IMG/VR virus record: IMGVR_UViG_3300032046_000104
Span: 1 to 36,392 of that record
From: a virus
Strand: one strand, 5' to 3'
Length of the DNA stretch: 36,392 bases
How positions within the stretch are numbered: the first letter of the stretch is position 1; each line of letters starts with the position of its first letter. The notes under the pieces are model-generated. The model saw nothing but the letters and a program-made list of their open reading frames with translations, was not told where the DNA came from and ran no database searches. The translations under genes and the position numbers were made by a program. This document shows positions 5,216 through 35,831 of the stretch, one piece after another.

Positions 5216-5415
5216 TGGACGCCGATGAGATCTTACGCAATTACTCTCCTGAACTGCAGTTAATAGATATGTTGGATTGGTTGCAAAACACTAGAGGCTT
5301 CGAGGCGAACCCAATCCCCCCTGTTCTTGATTCCAGTATCTCCAAAACCGCCGCAGAGTTTCTTCGGACGGATCCCACTCCAGGAGTTTCCGCTCAAGAT
5401 ATTCTATTGCTTTGA
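5215..5415 (+). CDS. Small acidic hypothetical protein overlapping the lysozyme gene
   Basis: The 66-residue product starts at an ATG sharing one base with the preceding stop (TAATG), a common coupling arrangement. The first 25 residues look like a natural acidic helix (MDADEILRNYSPELQLIDML). The last 125 nt run antisense over the 3' end of the lysozyme-like gene, so either this frame or the lysozyme C-terminus may be extended by chance. No family is recognised. Confidence 0.35.
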   Translation: MDADEILRNYSPELQLIDMLDWLQNTRGFEANPIPPVLDSSISKTAAEFLRTDPTPGVSAQDILLL

Positions 5416-6037
5416 TTTGGTTTGGTGTCCCCATATAACTTTCGCCAAGGTTAAGAAGGCACTGCTTCAGCGGACACTTGTGTTTAGTAAAAAGAGGAAC
5501 TTCAGCGTCTGGCGCCAGGTAGAGATTTAGCTCAACCCTGCGGCGCCTTTTTAACAAGGAATTGACGTAGCTATATTCAGGATTTATAAACGGACTCCAC
5601 TCTTTTATGATTGCATTCCTTGTCGCACGCTCATTAATAAGCTTCAATAAGTTAGATTGCTTAAACGCAATCAAACCGACGCTGTGCGCATAACCAACAA
5701 TTGCCGCACGTTTTTTAACGTTGAGCGGCATGTAAACATAACTAGAAAAATCAACGCAGAAATCTTCTAGGTCTCTAATTAACTGAGCATCAACTTCTTT
5801 TTGTGTTGTTTTAAAATGTGGTCCAGCCCACACCTTGCCGATGCGCTTGCTGCCATAGCCGATGCGCCACTCACCATGTTCAGTTTTATAGCTAGCAAAA
5901 CGGCCAAGACCGATTTCAGTCCTGGCCACAGTGTACGTTTTGATTAAGCGGACAGCAACGTCGCTAAGGAACGGGCTGACGTATTGATCAGGGAATAACG
6001 ACGCTGCCGGTGTATGAGGCTTCACTGTAACTATCAA
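5291..6037 (-). CDS. GH24-like lysozyme (muramidase fold), catalytic residues divergent
   Basis: The 248-residue product shows the phage T4-type lysozyme layout. An early Glu (E41, candidate acid) is followed by WRIGYGSK where the family has TIGYGH, then a middle helix pair, GYAHSVGLIAFKQSNLLKLIN (normally 'fN.G...f..StLl..lN') and LLKRRRRVELNLYL (normally 'GL.rRR..E..l'). The fold call is firm, but the catalytic Asp expected after the Tyr is Thr or Glu here (YKTE), and the active-site Thr is Arg58. It would cleave or bind peptidoglycan for entry or lysis. About 70 extra C-terminal residues follow. The start is TTG 6037 or GTG 6025; both lie inside the end of the upstream virion gene. Confidence 0.65.
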   Translation of the reverse strand: MIVTVKPHTPAASLFPDQYVSPFLSDVAVRLIKTYTVARTEIGLGRFASYKTEHGEWRIGYGSKRIGKVWAGPHFKTTQKEVDAQLIRDLEDFCVDFSSYVYMPLNVKKRAAIVGYAHSVGLIAFKQSNLLKLINERATRNAIIKEWSPFINPEYSYVNSLLKRRRRVELNLYLAPDAEVPLFTKHKCPLKQCLLNLGESYMGTPNQIKAIEYLERKLLEWDPSEETLRRFWRYWNQEQGGLGSPRSL

Positions 6038-6374
6038 ACGACATCAAGACAATATAGTCCTTTGTTGCGTCAGTAACGGTCACAGCCACAACGCCTTTTT
6101 CTTTGCCAGCCTTGGCGATATTAAAATATTTGAAGTATCCAGTGGGGGCAGAGCCTGCCGAATAGGAATCTTCTCTAAAAATTTCAATGTCGTTCAGAGC
6201 AGAGCTTTTGTCAATTTTGACAATAATGTCACCAGTGGCTGCAGGATTTACGCGAAAACCTCTGGTTAAATCGCCAACATTACCTGCTGCGGTGGCACCA
6301 ACGAAGGTGATCTCAGAACCGGCACTGACTTGCAGTCTGTCCAGGGTGCCTTTAATTGTGCGAGTGACGGCCAT
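5988..6374 (-). CDS. Small virion-type beta protein
   Basis: The 128-residue product (MAVTRTIKGTLDRLQVSAGSE...) is rich in Ala, Gly, Thr, Ser and Val, with alternating strands and no Cys or catalytic motif. That composition is typical of cyanophage tail or decoration proteins. It lies 5 nt downstream of the NblA-like gene, and its end overlaps the lysozyme-like gene by 38-50 nt, so the three probably share a transcript. A structural role is inferred from composition and from similar small proteins at 7.7-8.4 kb. Confidence 0.55.
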   Translation of the reverse strand: MAVTRTIKGTLDRLQVSAGSEITFVGATAAGNVGDLTRGFRVNPAATGDIIVKIDKSSALNDIEIFREDSYSAGSAPTGYFKYFNIAKAGKEKGVVAVTVTDATKDYIVLMSFDSYSEASYTGSVVIP

Positions 6375-6379
6375 TGCTA

Positions 6380-6601
6380 TTAAGAGAGTTGGTTTTCGGT
6401 GAGATAGTTGAAGGTGATGTCAGCGTCAATACCATGTTCCTTGAGAACCATAAAGAACATTTGACGATCCATCATTTTTTGATGGAGCATGTCAATGAAC
6501 GCTTCTTCTAGCTCGTCTCGGTCCAGGTTTTTAATCGCAAAAGCCGCTGCATGCACAGCAAACTCCTGATCGACAGATAAACTCAGGGCATCGGCGTCCA
6601 T
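6380..6601 (-). CDS. nblA: NblA-like phycobilisome degradation protein
   Basis: The 73-residue product from ATG 6601 matches the NblA family in size and motif order: LSLSVDQEF at the first helix, then LDRDELEEAFIDML and HQKMM.R at the second helix, ending near LKEHG. The LSV(D/E)Q, DELEE.FI and QKM positions agree closely with Synechococcus-type NblA as I recall it. In the family this adaptor binds phycobiliproteins and ClpC to drive phycobilisome breakdown; freshwater cyanophages such as Ma-LMM01 carry it. Here it would free amino acids or reduce light capture during infection. A TTG at 6613 could add 4 residues. A TGTTAGAAT extended -10 candidate lies 24 nt upstream. Confidence 0.8.
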   Translation of the reverse strand: MDADALSLSVDQEFAVHAAAFAIKNLDRDELEEAFIDMLHQKMMDRQMFFMVLKEHGIDADITFNYLTENQLS

Positions 6602-6624: not shown

Positions 6625-6633
6625 ATTCTAACA
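6625..6633 (-). promoter_or_regulatory. Candidate extended -10 promoter for the nblA-like gene
   Basis: On the - strand this reads TGTTAGAAT: an extended TG, one base, then TAGAAT, one mismatch from the bacterial -10. It ends 23 bases before ATG 6601. No -35 is visible at 16-18 bp. A 12-bp element shared with the oxygenase promoter sits 12 bases upstream of the TAGAAT. Confidence 0.4.
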
Positions 6634-6642
6634 GCCGTGATT

Positions 6643-6916
6643 TAAAAGCGCCTAAACTTTGTAAGAAAGCGGACTCAACGGCATGTAACGGCGATCATCC
6701 GCAATTGACGGAGAGTCTTCAGGATTTTCAAAATACCCTTGAGCTAATTGGGGTAATCGTTCCGTAACGTACTGCTGAAGGTGACTTTTCGCGGAGAAAT
6801 CGCTTGCCATGTTGTGCTCCACTGGGTTTCAAGAAGTAGTTACCAAGACCGTAACTTGTGAAAAAAGTACACGCAAAAATCAATGCTGCTGCTTCCACTT
6901 GCCATAGGCGCTTTTA
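6643..6916. repeat. 12-bp inverted repeat shared by two promoter regions
   Basis: TAAAAGCGCCTA at 6643-6654 is the exact reverse complement of TAGGCGCTTTTA at 6905-6916. Read in each gene's direction, the same 12-mer lies just upstream of the nblA -10 candidate and inside the -35/-10 spacer of the oxygenase promoter. This suggests a common operator; the regulator is unknown. The coordinates span both copies. Confidence 0.45.
6652..6810 (-). CDS. 52-residue hypothetical protein upstream of nblA
   Basis: A 52-residue frame starts at ATG 6810 after GTGGAG placed six bases upstream, a good Shine-Dalgarno. It ends in TAG at 6652-6654. The product begins MASDFSAKSHLQQYV and ends PLSPLSYKV, with an acidic middle (ENPEDSPSIADDRR) and no membrane segment. 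It fills what would otherwise be a 340-base gap before the nblA-like gene, and probably precedes it on the same transcript. Function is unknown. Confidence 0.6.
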   Translation of the reverse strand: MASDFSAKSHLQQYVTERLPQLAQGYFENPEDSPSIADDRRYMPLSPLSYKV

Positions 6917-6927
6917 TCCACTATATT
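6899..6927 (+). promoter_or_regulatory. Sigma70-type promoter for the P4H-type oxygenase
   Basis: TTGCCA at 6899-6904 and TATATT at 6922-6927 are separated by exactly 17 bp, close to the bacterial consensus. The predicted start of transcription is about 15-20 bases before the TTG codon at 6951. It is the clearest -35/-10 pair in the window. The spacer holds the 12-bp element shared with the nblA region. Confidence 0.6.
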
Positions 6928-6950: not shown

Positions 6951-7745
6951 TTGGAACAAAACGCGCTGGCATATGAAATAATGAAAGCCGCCGTCAGTGG
7001 GGTCAGTAAGACACAGATTATCAAATACATAAAAGAAACTTATGATCAATCAGATGAACAAATAAGACAACTTCTGCGTCTCTGTAATTTTAAAAGCAAA
7101 CCAAAAACAATCAACTACAAAGCATTTGCTGACCGGCAATTCACCAGTGAAGCACGACGCCTTTATTTTCCCTTTACACAACTTTACATAGCAGATGATT
7201 TTCTAACAGCCGATGAATGCCAAGAATTAATTAAAGCTTCTGCTACTATTCTGCGCCCTTCAACAGTTGCAGATCCTGGCGACACAAAAGCAGTGACAAA
7301 GTATCGCACCAGTAAAACAGCAGATCTGCATTATTTTAATTCTCCTTTTTTGAATTACGTAGATAATAAAATTGCAGATTTTATGGGGCTTAATCCTTTC
7401 CTTGGGGAGACCATGCAAGCGCAAAAGTATGCTCCAGGGGAATACTATAAGGCGCATCACGATTACTTTTGCCCGTTATTAAGAGAATTTAAAACTTATA
7501 CCGAGTGGATGGGGCAACGCACTTGGACTTTTATGCTCTACTTAAATGATGTGGAAGAAGGTGGTGAAACTTTATTCAAGCACTTGAAGTTAAAGATTAA
7601 ACCTACTGCAGGCAAAGCTATTGTGTGGAACAACCTTTACAGTAATGGTATTCCAAACCCCAAAACAATGCACGAAGCGCTGCCACCCATTAGCGGTGAT
7701 AAGTACGTGGTCACCAAGTGGTGGCGAAGCTGGCCGTTAATTTAA
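6951..7745 (+). CDS. Prolyl 4-hydroxylase-type 2-oxoglutarate/Fe(II) oxygenase
   Basis: The 264-residue product has a helical N-terminal part (1-60) and a P4H catalytic domain (about 75-262). The iron ligands are H169-x-D171 in YKAHHDYF and H241 in TMHEALPP. K251, ten residues after the distal His, is placed to bind 2-oxoglutarate. YLNDVEEGGETLF and GKAIVWNN are the usual core strands, and the end is KWWRSWP. Enzymes of this family hydroxylate prolines or other residues using oxygen and 2-oxoglutarate; they are frequent in cyanophages with unknown targets. The start is TTG 6951, or ATG 6981 if shorter. It is an isolated + gene with its own promoter, ending 4 nt inside a convergent gene. Confidence 0.85.
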   Translation: MEQNALAYEIMKAAVSGVSKTQIIKYIKETYDQSDEQIRQLLRLCNFKSKPKTINYKAFADRQFTSEARRLYFPFTQLYIADDFLTADECQELIKASATILRPSTVADPGDTKAVTKYRTSKTADLHYFNSPFLNYVDNKIADFMGLNPFLGETMQAQKYAPGEYYKAHHDYFCPLLREFKTYTEWMGQRTWTFMLYLNDVEEGGETLFKHLKLKIKPTAGKAIVWNNLYSNGIPNPKTMHEALPPISGDKYVVTKWWRSWPLI

Positions 7746-8086
7746 TTAGCTGCAACCTGGAACGTAACAGTAGCACTGGTGCCGCCCTCTTCATAGAAAA
7801 AATTGGCACGTATTTTTTTCATAGGGAAACCGCTGACGTTGTAAGCATACGTACCATTTTCCGTAATGGTGTTGGAGATCATTGCTCCAAAATTAGTGCC
7901 GTCAACGCTGCCATCAAGTCTTACAACAACTTTTGTATTAATATTTGCAACAGTTGCAATTAACGTGTAGTTGCGTGTAGACAAATAGTTAATTGTGTAC
8001 ACCTCTACGTCTTCCGTTGCCCCTGGAGCTGTCAGCGTTGGAAAGTTGAATAACGCTGTTTGCTGATAGCTCTCAAAGTAACCCAT
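7742..8086 (-). CDS. Small virion-type beta protein, paralogue 1
   Basis: The 114-residue product is a beta-rich protein with VVVRLDGSVDGTNFGA in the middle and a FPMKKIRANFFYEEGG turn near the end. The adjacent upstream gene has the same plan (VVRFEGSLDGTNFFA and FPLKAVRG), so the two are tandem paralogues. The 'GS-DGTNF' signature is typical of small phage adhesin or capsid-decoration proteins. Only 3 nt separate them. Its stop overlaps the P4H gene by 4 nt. Confidence 0.6.
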   Translation of the reverse strand: MGYFESYQQTALFNFPTLTAPGATEDVEVYTINYLSTRNYTLIATVANINTKVVVRLDGSVDGTNFGAMISNTITENGTYAYNVSGFPMKKIRANFFYEEGGTSATVTFQVAAN

Positions 8087-8089
8087 GAC

Positions 8090-8437
8090 TTATCTGGCTG
8101 AAATTACAAATGTAACAGTAGGAGTTCCTGTAGTGATCGTCACCAGGCGTCCACGTACAGCCTTGAGGGGGAAGTTTGCCACGCTGTAACCGGTTGTACT
8201 GTTAGCGGAGATAGTGGTGTCAGCGGCGGCTAGAGCAAAGAAGTTGGTGCCATCAAGGCTGCCTTCAAACCGGACAACAATGCTGGTTCCAATAGAAGCA
8301 ACAGTGACTTGAAAACCGTAATTAATAGGCGCAAATTCGTCTTGATCTGCAACCAAGCAAGTTGTCGTTACACCTGGAGCGGTCAACGCTGTCGGGTAAA
8401 AAAACAGGGTGTCGTTAAAAATAGGAGAGGCAGACAT
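8090..8437 (-). CDS. Small virion-type beta protein, paralogue 2
   Basis: The 115-residue product shares length, strand order and the VVRxxGSxDGTNF motif with the gene just downstream, and both open with a short aromatic stretch followed by (T/A)LTAPG. Conservation is clear at motif level only, so the duplication is not recent. No Cys pair or enzyme motif is present. The start is 6 nt from the stop of the Dps-like gene, so the three genes are probably co-transcribed. A particle-surface role is inferred. Confidence 0.6.
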   Translation of the reverse strand: MSASPIFNDTLFFYPTALTAPGVTTTCLVADQDEFAPINYGFQVTVASIGTSIVVRFEGSLDGTNFFALAAADTTISANSTTGYSVANFPLKAVRGRLVTITTGTPTVTFVISAR

Positions 8438-8443
8438 GGCTAA

Positions 8444-8914
8444 TTATTTCTTATAATCTAGTGTACTCTTAAGCAACCATTGGAATTTTTTATGCACACG
8501 ACCTCGTTCAACTCCAAGGTCAAGAGTAAGTTGATCGCCAATTGCTTCGCTCATCTTGCTTAACTCTTCAAATTTCTTAGCAAGCAAGTTATGGTTGGTT
8601 GCCAGTTGCAAGATAATGCGCTCTTGATCAAAGCAGCTTTCCAGGGGGACAGTTGGAAGCGTGGTGTACACCAGGTCTTCAACTGTTTTTGGCGTAGCAA
8701 TATCTAACGAGCGAATGTGTTCGGCAATCGTGTCATTGCCTTCTTCCATTTCTTTGTAAATACGTTCCGTCAAGAGGTGAATTTGATAAAACTTACCTCC
8801 CATTAAGTTCCAATGAACAAGTTGAGTTTGATGATAAACATAAACTGAGTCACGCAAGCACTGCGTTAAATGGCAGTAGCAAGGAGTTGACTTGTCGGTT
8901 GCAGGTTTTGCCAC
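8444..8914 (-). CDS. Dps-like ferritin (DNA protection during starvation)
   Basis: The 156-residue product carries the full Dps ferroxidase signature with the expected spacing: H34-W-N, H46 twelve residues later, D61 fifteen after that and E65 four further (LVHWNLMGG, FYQIHLL, NDTIAEH). These residues form the inter-subunit iron site. The length fits one four-helix Dps subunit, and twelve would form a shell that oxidises Fe(II) with peroxide, protecting DNA. A short Cys/His-containing N-terminus replaces the Lys-rich DNA-binding tail of E. coli Dps. The start is GTG. A TATAAT lies 36 nt upstream. In a phage it could limit oxidative damage in a photosynthetic host; this role is inferred. Confidence 0.8.
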   Translation of the reverse strand: MAKPATDKSTPCYCHLTQCLRDSVYVYHQTQLVHWNLMGGKFYQIHLLTERIYKEMEEGNDTIAEHIRSLDIATPKTVEDLVYTTLPTVPLESCFDQERIILQLATNHNLLAKKFEELSKMSEAIGDQLTLDLGVERGRVHKKFQWLLKSTLDYKK

Positions 8915-33113: not shown

Positions 33114-34637
33114 TCAATATTCGAGCTCAAGTTTCCCCCTGGTCATCAATCCGTTGCAGAGCCAAATTAACGCGTCGACGCAGTCGTCGTGTGAGCTGAC
33201 GCCAAAGTTAATGATCTCATCAGTCAACGCCTGGAACTTGCGATACTTGTTAAAAGTAATTTTGCGCTGCTCAAACAATCCCATGATGCCTCTAAAGCGT
33301 GCAACCTTGTCACCACGGAATCCTTTGACCGCATGCCAGTTAATGTTGTAAAGCCCGTGCTCTCCCAAGCAGATCCGTTTAAAGTCAGCTTCAAGGGACG
33401 CTTGGTATGCCACAGCTTCTGACCACACGTCAATAGTGCTGCCAGTGGGGAAATATTGGTTTCCATCTTTGTGTGCAATTCCCCACTCATAACACATCTC
33501 CATAAGAGACTCCAGCTTCTCTAAGTTACCCATAACGCGGATCCGCTTGCAATCTATGATGTGAATCTTGCTGCCGATCCTGCCGCCAAGCACTATGGCT
33601 GTGTAGTCATTACGTTCTCTTATACCAGCGGAGAGGTCAATGCCGATCCCCAAAGCATCAAACTCCGTGGAGATTTGGCCTTTAACAATCAGCTCAGGGG
33701 AAAGGGAAAGCTCGCTGGTTTGTGCAATTTGATTTTGATACTGAAAACTAAAACTGATAGGTGCTTGACGGCGGCGATCGCTAAGATACTCCAGAGACCA
33801 CATGTTAGGCCAGTAAGAAACTTCGTCTCCGTTAGCATCAACAGTGATTGCGGATTGAACGATTTGAACCCAGTCATTTTGTGGTGTGAAGGTGGTGCTG
33901 TGAATGTCGTCGTGTCTGAACCGAGTGCCAAGGCAGATGGCTCTTCCACCCTCAAACATAGTAGGAACAATAACGGAGTTCCAGTTGTCCTCCATCATCT
34001 GTCGGATGTCTTTATTTTTAATGTCGTCGCTCGACTTAATACAGTCGTCGATTATACATAAGTGGCTTCGTTTTGAGGTCACGGCGCCTTTGAGGCCGGC
34101 GCAACAAACTGTAAACTCTTCTTCACCAGTAGACCTGATGCCTGCAAACTTCCAATCAATACTCCAGTATTCGTTGGAGTTAATCCCTTTGGCAATTTTT
34201 ACCATAGGGAAAATTTCTCGATACGTTTTACTTTCTTCGATGATGCGCTTGATGGCTGCACTCTTAGGCCGAGCAACATCAACCGTGTAGGAAATGTAAA
34301 GAATCTTTAAGGGTTTTTTGTGGAAGGCGTGAACGCCAATTGCCCAAGCTGTATATAAACCTAAAACTGTACTTTTTGCACTACCCCTGGGAGCAAGGAT
34401 GTCAATGTTGGGACCACCGATAGCAATCAAGCACTCAGTATTATCGCCAGTACAAAGGTAGCGGTGCCATTGCTTATGGTGTTCTGCTGGCGGTTTATCT
34501 CCTACTACGTCACAAAAGTATGCAAAATCTGTACGCGCCCGTTCAGTGTCAATGTTAGAAGTTTTTTTAACAACTTGTTGTTTAGCTGCTGCACGCGCAG
34601 TTCTGCGATGAACACTATAAAGACTTGTGCCAGCCAA
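33114..34637 (-). CDS. terL: Terminase large subunit
   Basis: The 507-residue product is a phage DNA-packaging motor. The ATPase has Walker A PRGSAKST (83-90), Walker B LCIIDD (193-198), and a coupling motif CLGTRFRHDD (235-244). The nuclease half has acidic residues at D334 (GIGIDLSAG), around 403-408 (DVWSEAVAY) and DD484-485 plus D488 (SSHDDCVDALIWL), in the order expected for the RNase H-like fold. It cuts concatemers and pumps DNA into the head with ATP. The start is TTG 34637 with GAGG 6 bases upstream. The last acidic residues of the Walker B are DD rather than DE. It is followed by the AbrB-like gene and the portal gene. Confidence 0.93.
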   Translation of the reverse strand: MAGTSLYSVHRRTARAAAKQQVVKKTSNIDTERARTDFAYFCDVVGDKPPAEHHKQWHRYLCTGDNTECLIAIGGPNIDILAPRGSAKSTVLGLYTAWAIGVHAFHKKPLKILYISYTVDVARPKSAAIKRIIEESKTYREIFPMVKIAKGINSNEYWSIDWKFAGIRSTGEEEFTVCCAGLKGAVTSKRSHLCIIDDCIKSSDDIKNKDIRQMMEDNWNSVIVPTMFEGGRAICLGTRFRHDDIHSTTFTPQNDWVQIVQSAITVDANGDEVSYWPNMWSLEYLSDRRRQAPISFSFQYQNQIAQTSELSLSPELIVKGQISTEFDALGIGIDLSAGIRERNDYTAIVLGGRIGSKIHIIDCKRIRVMGNLEKLESLMEMCYEWGIAHKDGNQYFPTGSTIDVWSEAVAYQASLEADFKRICLGEHGLYNINWHAVKGFRGDKVARFRGIMGLFEQRKITFNKYRKFQALTDEIINFGVSSHDDCVDALIWLCNGLMTRGKLELEY

Positions 34638-34677: not shown

Positions 34678-35163
34678 TTATGATTCTTCTTGCAGAATTT
34701 TTGTCCATACTGCCATGGACGCTTCTTCTAAGGGGCCTTCAATAGGATCATCACGGAAGATCAAAAGCATCTCACGCAACGCACGATCGGCGCCAGCGAG
34801 GATCAGACCTTGCTTGTCGGTGAGGTGTTTTTCGTCGTTAAGTTGCTTGATGGTGCCACGCAGTTCTTTTTGGAGCATGGCGATCCTGGAGGCCCCCATG
34901 TCTTGCTTGATCATGCCAAGATCAATTGCTTCCCTAAGCTTTGCAATATCCTGCTGCATGGAGTCAATTTCCATCTCCATGATTCCATTGAAGTTTCTCT
35001 TCTTAAATTCTTTTACAGCCCATTCACTGCACTCCACGATGCTGCCTGTAAACCCGAGAAATCGGGAGTACAGATACATCTGTATGGGTGAAGAGATTTG
35101 CTTGCAAAAAGAAAGAAAGGATTCGCGGTCTTTTTCAGTTAAAGACTGGAGCCAGTCAATCAT
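34678..35163 (-). CDS. Small terminase subunit candidate
   Basis: The 161-residue product is helical throughout, with several hydrophobic-charged repeats (IDSMQQDIAKLREAIDLGMIKQ, ASRIAMLQKELRGTIKQLNDEKHL). It has an N-terminal part (TEKDRESFLSFCKQISSPIQ) that could be a DNA-binding helical bundle. It lies 40 nt upstream of the terminase large subunit gene and overlaps the repeat-protein gene by 4 nt. That position, size and composition fit a TerS, which recognises the packaging start, but no family motif is confirmed. TerS sequences are often poorly conserved. Confidence 0.55.
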   Translation of the reverse strand: MIDWLQSLTEKDRESFLSFCKQISSPIQMYLYSRFLGFTGSIVECSEWAVKEFKKRNFNGIMEMEIDSMQQDIAKLREAIDLGMIKQDMGASRIAMLQKELRGTIKQLNDEKHLTDKQGLILAGADRALREMLLIFRDDPIEGPLEEASMAVWTKILQEES

Positions 35164-35831
35164 GCACGATAAGAGCCTTGCGCCCAGTTACGGTTCCTGT
35201 TGGCAGCATAGTTCTCTTGCATGATTTTCTGCAAGTCGGTTTTCCGCGTTTCTTCGCCGGCAGTTTGCGTACCGCGACGTTGCTCTTCGCCGGTTACTCG
35301 CGTACCAAGCCGTTGTTGTTCACCTTCAGTTACCGTACCGAGACGTTGCTGTTCACCAGCGGTTACTGTGCCTAACCGTGATTCCTCACCGGTTACTCGC
35401 GTACCAAGCCGTGATTCCTCACCGGTTACTCGCGTACCAAGCCGTTGTTGTTCACCTTCAGTAATCATACCGCGACGTTGCTCTTCACCAGCTACTCGCG
35501 TACCAAGCCGTGATTCCTCACCGGTTACTCGCGTACCAAGCCGTTGTTGTTCACCTTCAGTTACCGTACCGAGACGTTGCTGTTCACCTTGCGTTGCAAT
35601 GGTGGCACGGGTTTCACCACCAACAGCTTGTGTCTGGCGCATGTCCTGCGTGGTGAAGAACGCCTTGTTCTGCTGGTCCAGCTGCGACCCAAGGGTCATG
35701 TTGAGCCGGGATTGTGCACCGCTGACTTCATTTAACGCAGTTTGAGACTCCAGGGACTGAGTAGGCTGCTGCGTTACCGTGGGGGCCGGCGGCGGCGGGG
35801 GGTAAGTGACAGAGGGTGAACTACCTCCCAT
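35160..35831 (-). CDS. Hendecad-repeat protein upstream of terminase
   Basis: The 223-residue product has a proline-rich start (MGGSSPSVTYPPPPPAP), a Gln/Ser helix (residues 25-70), and then ten near-perfect 11-residue repeats (residues 82-191). The consensus is GE(Q/E)(Q/S)RLGT(R/V)(V/T)(T/E/A), with two weaker copies on either side. An 11-residue period is the hallmark of right-handed, nearly straight coiled coils, so this may be a long rod or tail spike shaft, or a particle-internal fibre. It is upstream of and overlaps the TerS candidate by 4 nt. An extended -10 precedes it. The start ATG has GAGG at 10 nt. Confidence 0.65.
   Translation of the reverse strand: MGGSSPSVTYPPPPPAPTVTQQPTQSLESQTALNEVSGAQSRLNMTLGSQLDQQNKAFFTTQDMRQTQAVGGETRATIATQGEQQRLGTVTEGEQQRLGTRVTGEESRLGTRVAGEEQRRGMITEGEQQRLGTRVTGEESRLGTRVTGEESRLGTVTAGEQQRLGTVTEGEQQRLGTRVTGEEQRRGTQTAGEETRKTDLQKIMQENYAANRNRNWAQGSYRA
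35226..35621. repeat. Twelve 33-bp tandem repeats
   Basis: The array codes for the 11-residue repeat, with ten very similar units (35259-35588) and one weaker copy at each end. Units differ by a few bases, mostly in two alternating types (QQRLGT and ESRLGT), so the array probably grew by unit and two-unit duplications. Copy number may vary between related phages. Confidence 0.9.

Follow-up and report, generated by a model that had tools for sequence, protein, structure and literature searches.

An NblA homologue with a conserved, probably dedicated promoter beside the lysozyme gene of an S-EIV1-related phage

Not many phages are known to drive the breakdown of phycobilisomes, and a small gene in the 36,392-bp linear viral record analyzed here (the window, itself a fragment) raises the question of whether its virus carries such a function and, if so, with which other genes it is expressed. 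The open reading frame lies at positions 6380–6601 on the minus strand, with its ATG at 6601 and its stop codon at 6382–6380; read on the plus strand, the same interval holds no open frame. The NblA-like product of 73 residues and the three motifs that the initial annotation had described are indeed present: LSVDQEF at residues 8–14, DELEEAFI at 29–36 and QKM at 41–43. Compared with S. elongatus NblA (3cs5), the product aligns without a gap over residues 6–54.

Profile searches point to the same family. The NCBIfam NblA model (NF045916) matches the product with E = 2.6e-8 (33.9 bits, below its curated cut-off of 100 bits) and the Pfam model (PF04485) with E = 0.0022 (18.9 bits, below the curated 25 bits). 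The top two matches in a sequence search of the PDB are NblA structures, 3cs5 (E = 8e-5) and 1ojh (E = 0.0012), and profile–profile comparison with hhalign against the Anabaena, S. elongatus and Ma-LMM01 NblA proteins gives a probability of 96 and E = 4e-9 over residues 7–60. When the aligned relatives (n = 35) were searched, NF045916 was matched by all 35 and Pfam NblA by 12. For the monomer, AlphaFold2 predicts helices at residues 10–24 and 28–55 (pLDDT 75, pTM 0.41), a hairpin that agrees with the helix-loop-helix reported for NblA (PMC4103541).

Missing a curated cut-off is no argument against membership, since the annotated NblA of the Microcystis phage Ma-LMM01, our positive control, also falls below it: this protein, likewise phage-borne and matched by NF045916, reaches only E = 0.008 and 14.2 bits, worse than the window protein. 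The cut-off demands more than is usually asked of a phage NblA, and reaching it is not part of what defines the family. Because NF045916 also gives weak matches (E ≤ 0.1) in two control genomes that are not cyanobacterial, it is the evidence taken jointly that counts and no single weak match. Searching the phage collection by tblastn with the window protein returned no NblA, and an approximate Anabaena-type NblA query (1ojh) likewise returned none, missing even the annotated Ma-LMM01 gene; plain BLAST is thus too weak for this family.

Weak spurious matches are typical of short helical proteins, and the gene could in principle encode a small helical phage protein, associated for example with the virion or with lysis, that has no kinship with NblA. 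It always adjoins the lysozyme gene and lies near small virion-like ORFs, and Foldseek, queried with the short two-helix monomer of modest confidence, found no significant match of any kind in PDB or BFVD, NblA included. Such a chance resemblance is nevertheless very improbable, given that NblA comes first in three independent searches, that 35 of 35 family members agree, that both helices align without a gap and that the phage has a cyanophage among its relatives. From these comparisons we conclude that the product is an NblA homologue.

Relatives of the protein are encoded by 120 viral contigs found with the window query (65–93% identity) and by at least 330 found with the family profile. 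Across the relatives' alignment 25 of the 73 columns never vary, including D11, F14, H17, DRDE (27–30), HQK (40–42), K54 and HGID (56–59), and K54 occupies a position aligned with the phycobiliprotein-binding end of NblA. The dN/dS ratio ranges from about 0.04 to 0.06 against the closest relatives, with a family median of 0.03, values that indicate strong purifying selection on nblA. Set against cyanobacterial NblA (PF04485/NF045916; 1ojh, 3cs5), the window protein shares both helices without gaps, LSVDQEF where the former has LSVEQQF, the QKM motif, a similar size and the predicted hairpin, but it differs in having D for E at position 11, the invariant H17 and DRDE, scores below the curated cut-offs, and a conserved tail, the last ~14 residues, which lies outside the NblA profile match.

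These departures might be read as the marks of a repurposed NblA-fold protein, one that binds ClpC and either brings it some other substrate or blocks host NblA/ClpC as an anti-adaptor, its specificity residing in the tail (HGIDADIxFNYxTxxQLS). The tail is conserved and specific to the family, invariant H17, DRDE and HQK are absent from the three NblA sequences compared, and the curated cut-offs are missed. However, the Ma-LMM01 protein, lower still on the NblA model, is an accepted NblA, and the phage NblAs assayed in the literature degrade phycobilisomes (PMC9602691), so that repurposing seems to us unlikely and an NblA directed at phycobilisomes remains the preferred reading.

The window shares 60–68% identity in terminase, 52–53% in portal and 69% in capsid with Synechococcus phage S-EIV1 (KJ410740). 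It belongs to an S-EIV1-related lineage without being a near relative of S-EIV1, and its virus probably infects a cyanobacterium. Unlike the window, S-EIV1 yielded no nblA in a search with the NblA model, and the table of Nishimura et al. for the S-EIV1 genus lists hli and ptoX and not nblA (PMC5332604). Among eight large or intermediate records examined, an integrase occurs in one relative and psbA in two, and neither is found in the window record, which is a fragment. A possible cellular relative was considered and rejected: the lone match among genome contigs (L093; QQUU01000116.1, a 'Bacteroidetes' MAG) is a mis-binned phage contig with nblA, lysozyme, oxygenase and HNH genes in phage order.

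Two further features of the record were noted. The terminase gene, compared at 33114–34637 (minus strand), L083 4101–6617 and L180 11659–14118, runs unbroken in both the window and relative G003, whereas its halves lie ~0.8–1 kb apart in S-EIV1 and in relative G002, which suggests an intein in the S-EIV1 terminase, annotated there as one long CDS. The ORF translation of 35160–35831 (minus strand) contains many tandem EQQRLGT/EESRLGT repeats.

Does nblA have a promoter of its own, as the initial annotation had claimed? On the minus strand, 23 nt separate an extended −10 (TG at 6633–6632, a T, and TAGAAT at 6630–6625) from the ATG. In a first set of upstream sequences, CTGnTARRAT precedes the ATG in 35 of 35; in a wider set of 83 distinct upstream sequences, 79 have TGnTARRAT at 22–35 nt from the ATG (0.6% in shuffles) and the remaining four carry the variant TGTTAAACT at the equivalent place. 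Across the 35 upstream sequences at least eight positions of the element are invariant whereas the flanking columns are almost random, and the element persists where the ORF upstream of nblA has been replaced. The pattern is therefore that of an extended −10 footprint and not of shared ancestry alone. Many relatives have in addition a TTG box ~16–17 nt further upstream, which the window's clade lacks. The claim of a dedicated extended −10 promoter is thus well supported by comparison among relatives, and the element appears conserved across the family.

The same motif was considered as a phage-wide promoter class and rejected, since its matches in the window, two relatives and S-EIV1 are few and untied to the main structural genes. 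Two other minus-strand TGnTARRAT matches of the window lie ahead of ORFs (2681 and 11239) and are not clearly conserved.

Downstream of nblA the gene order is fixed. A 128-aa ORF (5988–6374, minus strand) starts 5 nt past the nblA stop codon, and its end overlaps a phage lysozyme gene (5291–6037, minus strand, exact start uncertain; Pfam Phage_lysozyme E = 2.7e-13). All 150 of the 150 loci with enough flank keep the order nblA, this ORF directly downstream, and lysozyme, although these counts are not independent, as many loci belong to one lineage and some contigs were fetched twice by different queries. No sigma-70-like site was listed on the minus strand between nblA and lysozyme in a promoter scan. 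The three genes thus probably form a single transcription unit, in which transcription begun at nblA would continue through ORF 5988–6374 and the lysozyme gene. Their arrangement suggests that nblA is co-expressed with the lysozyme module, unlike the nblA of Ma-LMM01, an early gene that overlaps nrdA (PMC4103541).

Co-transcription with lysozyme could also mean that antenna dismantling is itself coupled to lysis, occurring late or shortly before it, with the tail perhaps directing ClpC to additional proteins. We regard this version as doubtful; were it true, nblA might serve amino-acid salvage for virions or loosen thylakoid surfaces, and its timing would differ from that of nblA in Microcystis phages, which is early.

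On the other side of nblA lies a small minus-strand ORF of 52 aa (6652–6822, likely ATG at ~6810, TAG stop at 6654–6652), with a homologue in 77 of 159 relatives. It is overlapped in another frame by a GTG-start ORF (6728–6898, minus strand), conserved in relatives, that has one apparent membrane stretch (VEAAALIFACTFFTSYGLGNYFLKP...) and, being near the lysozyme gene, is a candidate holin or spanin. Two genes from nblA, a minus-strand gene (8444–8914) encodes a Dps/ferritin-like DNA-binding protein (Pfam Ferritin E = 6.8e-9; PHROG DNA-binding protein); 75 of 132 relatives have it near nblA, and in S-EIV1 it is located elsewhere. Between dps and the oxygenase gene described below are two adjacent minus-strand genes for small paralogous proteins (7742–8086 and 8090–8437), ~40% identical to each other's relatives and present in one or two copies in relatives.

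Divergent from nblA is a gene for a 2OG-Fe(II) oxygenase (6951–7745, plus strand; Pfam E = 5.5e-15), and the initial annotation had proposed that a 12-bp element upstream of both genes, TAGGCGCTTTTA, joins their timing. Exact copies do occur in the two upstream regions, at 6643–6654 (minus strand) on the nblA side and at 6905–6916 (plus strand), and nowhere else in the window. The second copy falls within the spacer of the oxygenase promoter, TTGCCA-17-TATATT (6899–6927, plus strand), which is the best sigma-70-like site of the region and is kept in many relatives. This proposal does not survive comparison, and we rejected the element as a functional one. It is found in none of 80 relatives, the first three bases of its nblA-side copy are the TAG stop codon (6654–6652) of ORF 6652–6822, and each gene has a conserved promoter that differs from the other's. 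Nor are exact 12-mer pairs rare: about 100 are expected by chance in a window of such size, and the window has 85 inverted and 435 direct pairs against ~50 of each in shuffled windows. Of 132 relatives, moreover, 93 have the oxygenase gene near nblA and 39 (about 30%) lack it there, which makes the gene a dispensable neighbor and not an obligate partner. Co-timing of the two genes through a shared element is accordingly the least credible of the readings considered here.

We think it probable, taking homology and locus structure together, that the gene encodes a phage NblA that strips phycobilisomes by way of Clp, has a dedicated promoter and is expressed with the lysozyme module, not the oxygenase. 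NblA proteins bind ClpC near their N terminus and phycobiliproteins near their C terminus and deliver the latter to the Clp protease, and disruption via structural mimicry has also been proposed (PMC4103541, PMC7966870). By analogy, the helix-turn-helix protein would most likely dimerize, dock through its C-terminal end on phycobilisome proteins and use its N-terminal part to recruit the ClpC unfoldase of the host, so that the host Clp protease would be made to strip phycobilisomes. Stripping would free amino acids and lower light absorption during infection. Host-type sigma-70 RNA polymerase would probably recognize the extended −10, and nblA would be timed with the lysozyme module rather than with the oxygenase. 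Expression of phage NblAs in cyanobacteria leads to phycobilin loss (PMC9602691, which cites Gao 2012, Ou 2015 and Nadel 2019), and phycobilisome breakdown by the window NblA is a strong inference from homology.

Phage NblA is thus already established. PMC9602691 describes, after Nadel 2019, NblAs of picocyanobacterial phages (an uncultured marine cyanophage, cyanopodoviruses and S-TIM5) and reports the marine cyanophage NblA to be active on expression. What the present locus adds is the S-EIV1-related lineage, the well-supported dedicated promoter and the invariant lysozyme linkage. No literature report of nblA in S-EIV1-like phages was found in a search that lacked Nadel 2019 and Flores-Uribe 2019. 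Since at least 330 environmental viral contigs encode members of the family, nblA seems to be common in this lineage, where annotation by curated cut-offs would leave it unnamed as NblA. Finally, its conserved promoter and fixed linkage to lysozyme yield a testable prediction on the timing of antenna dismantling during infection.
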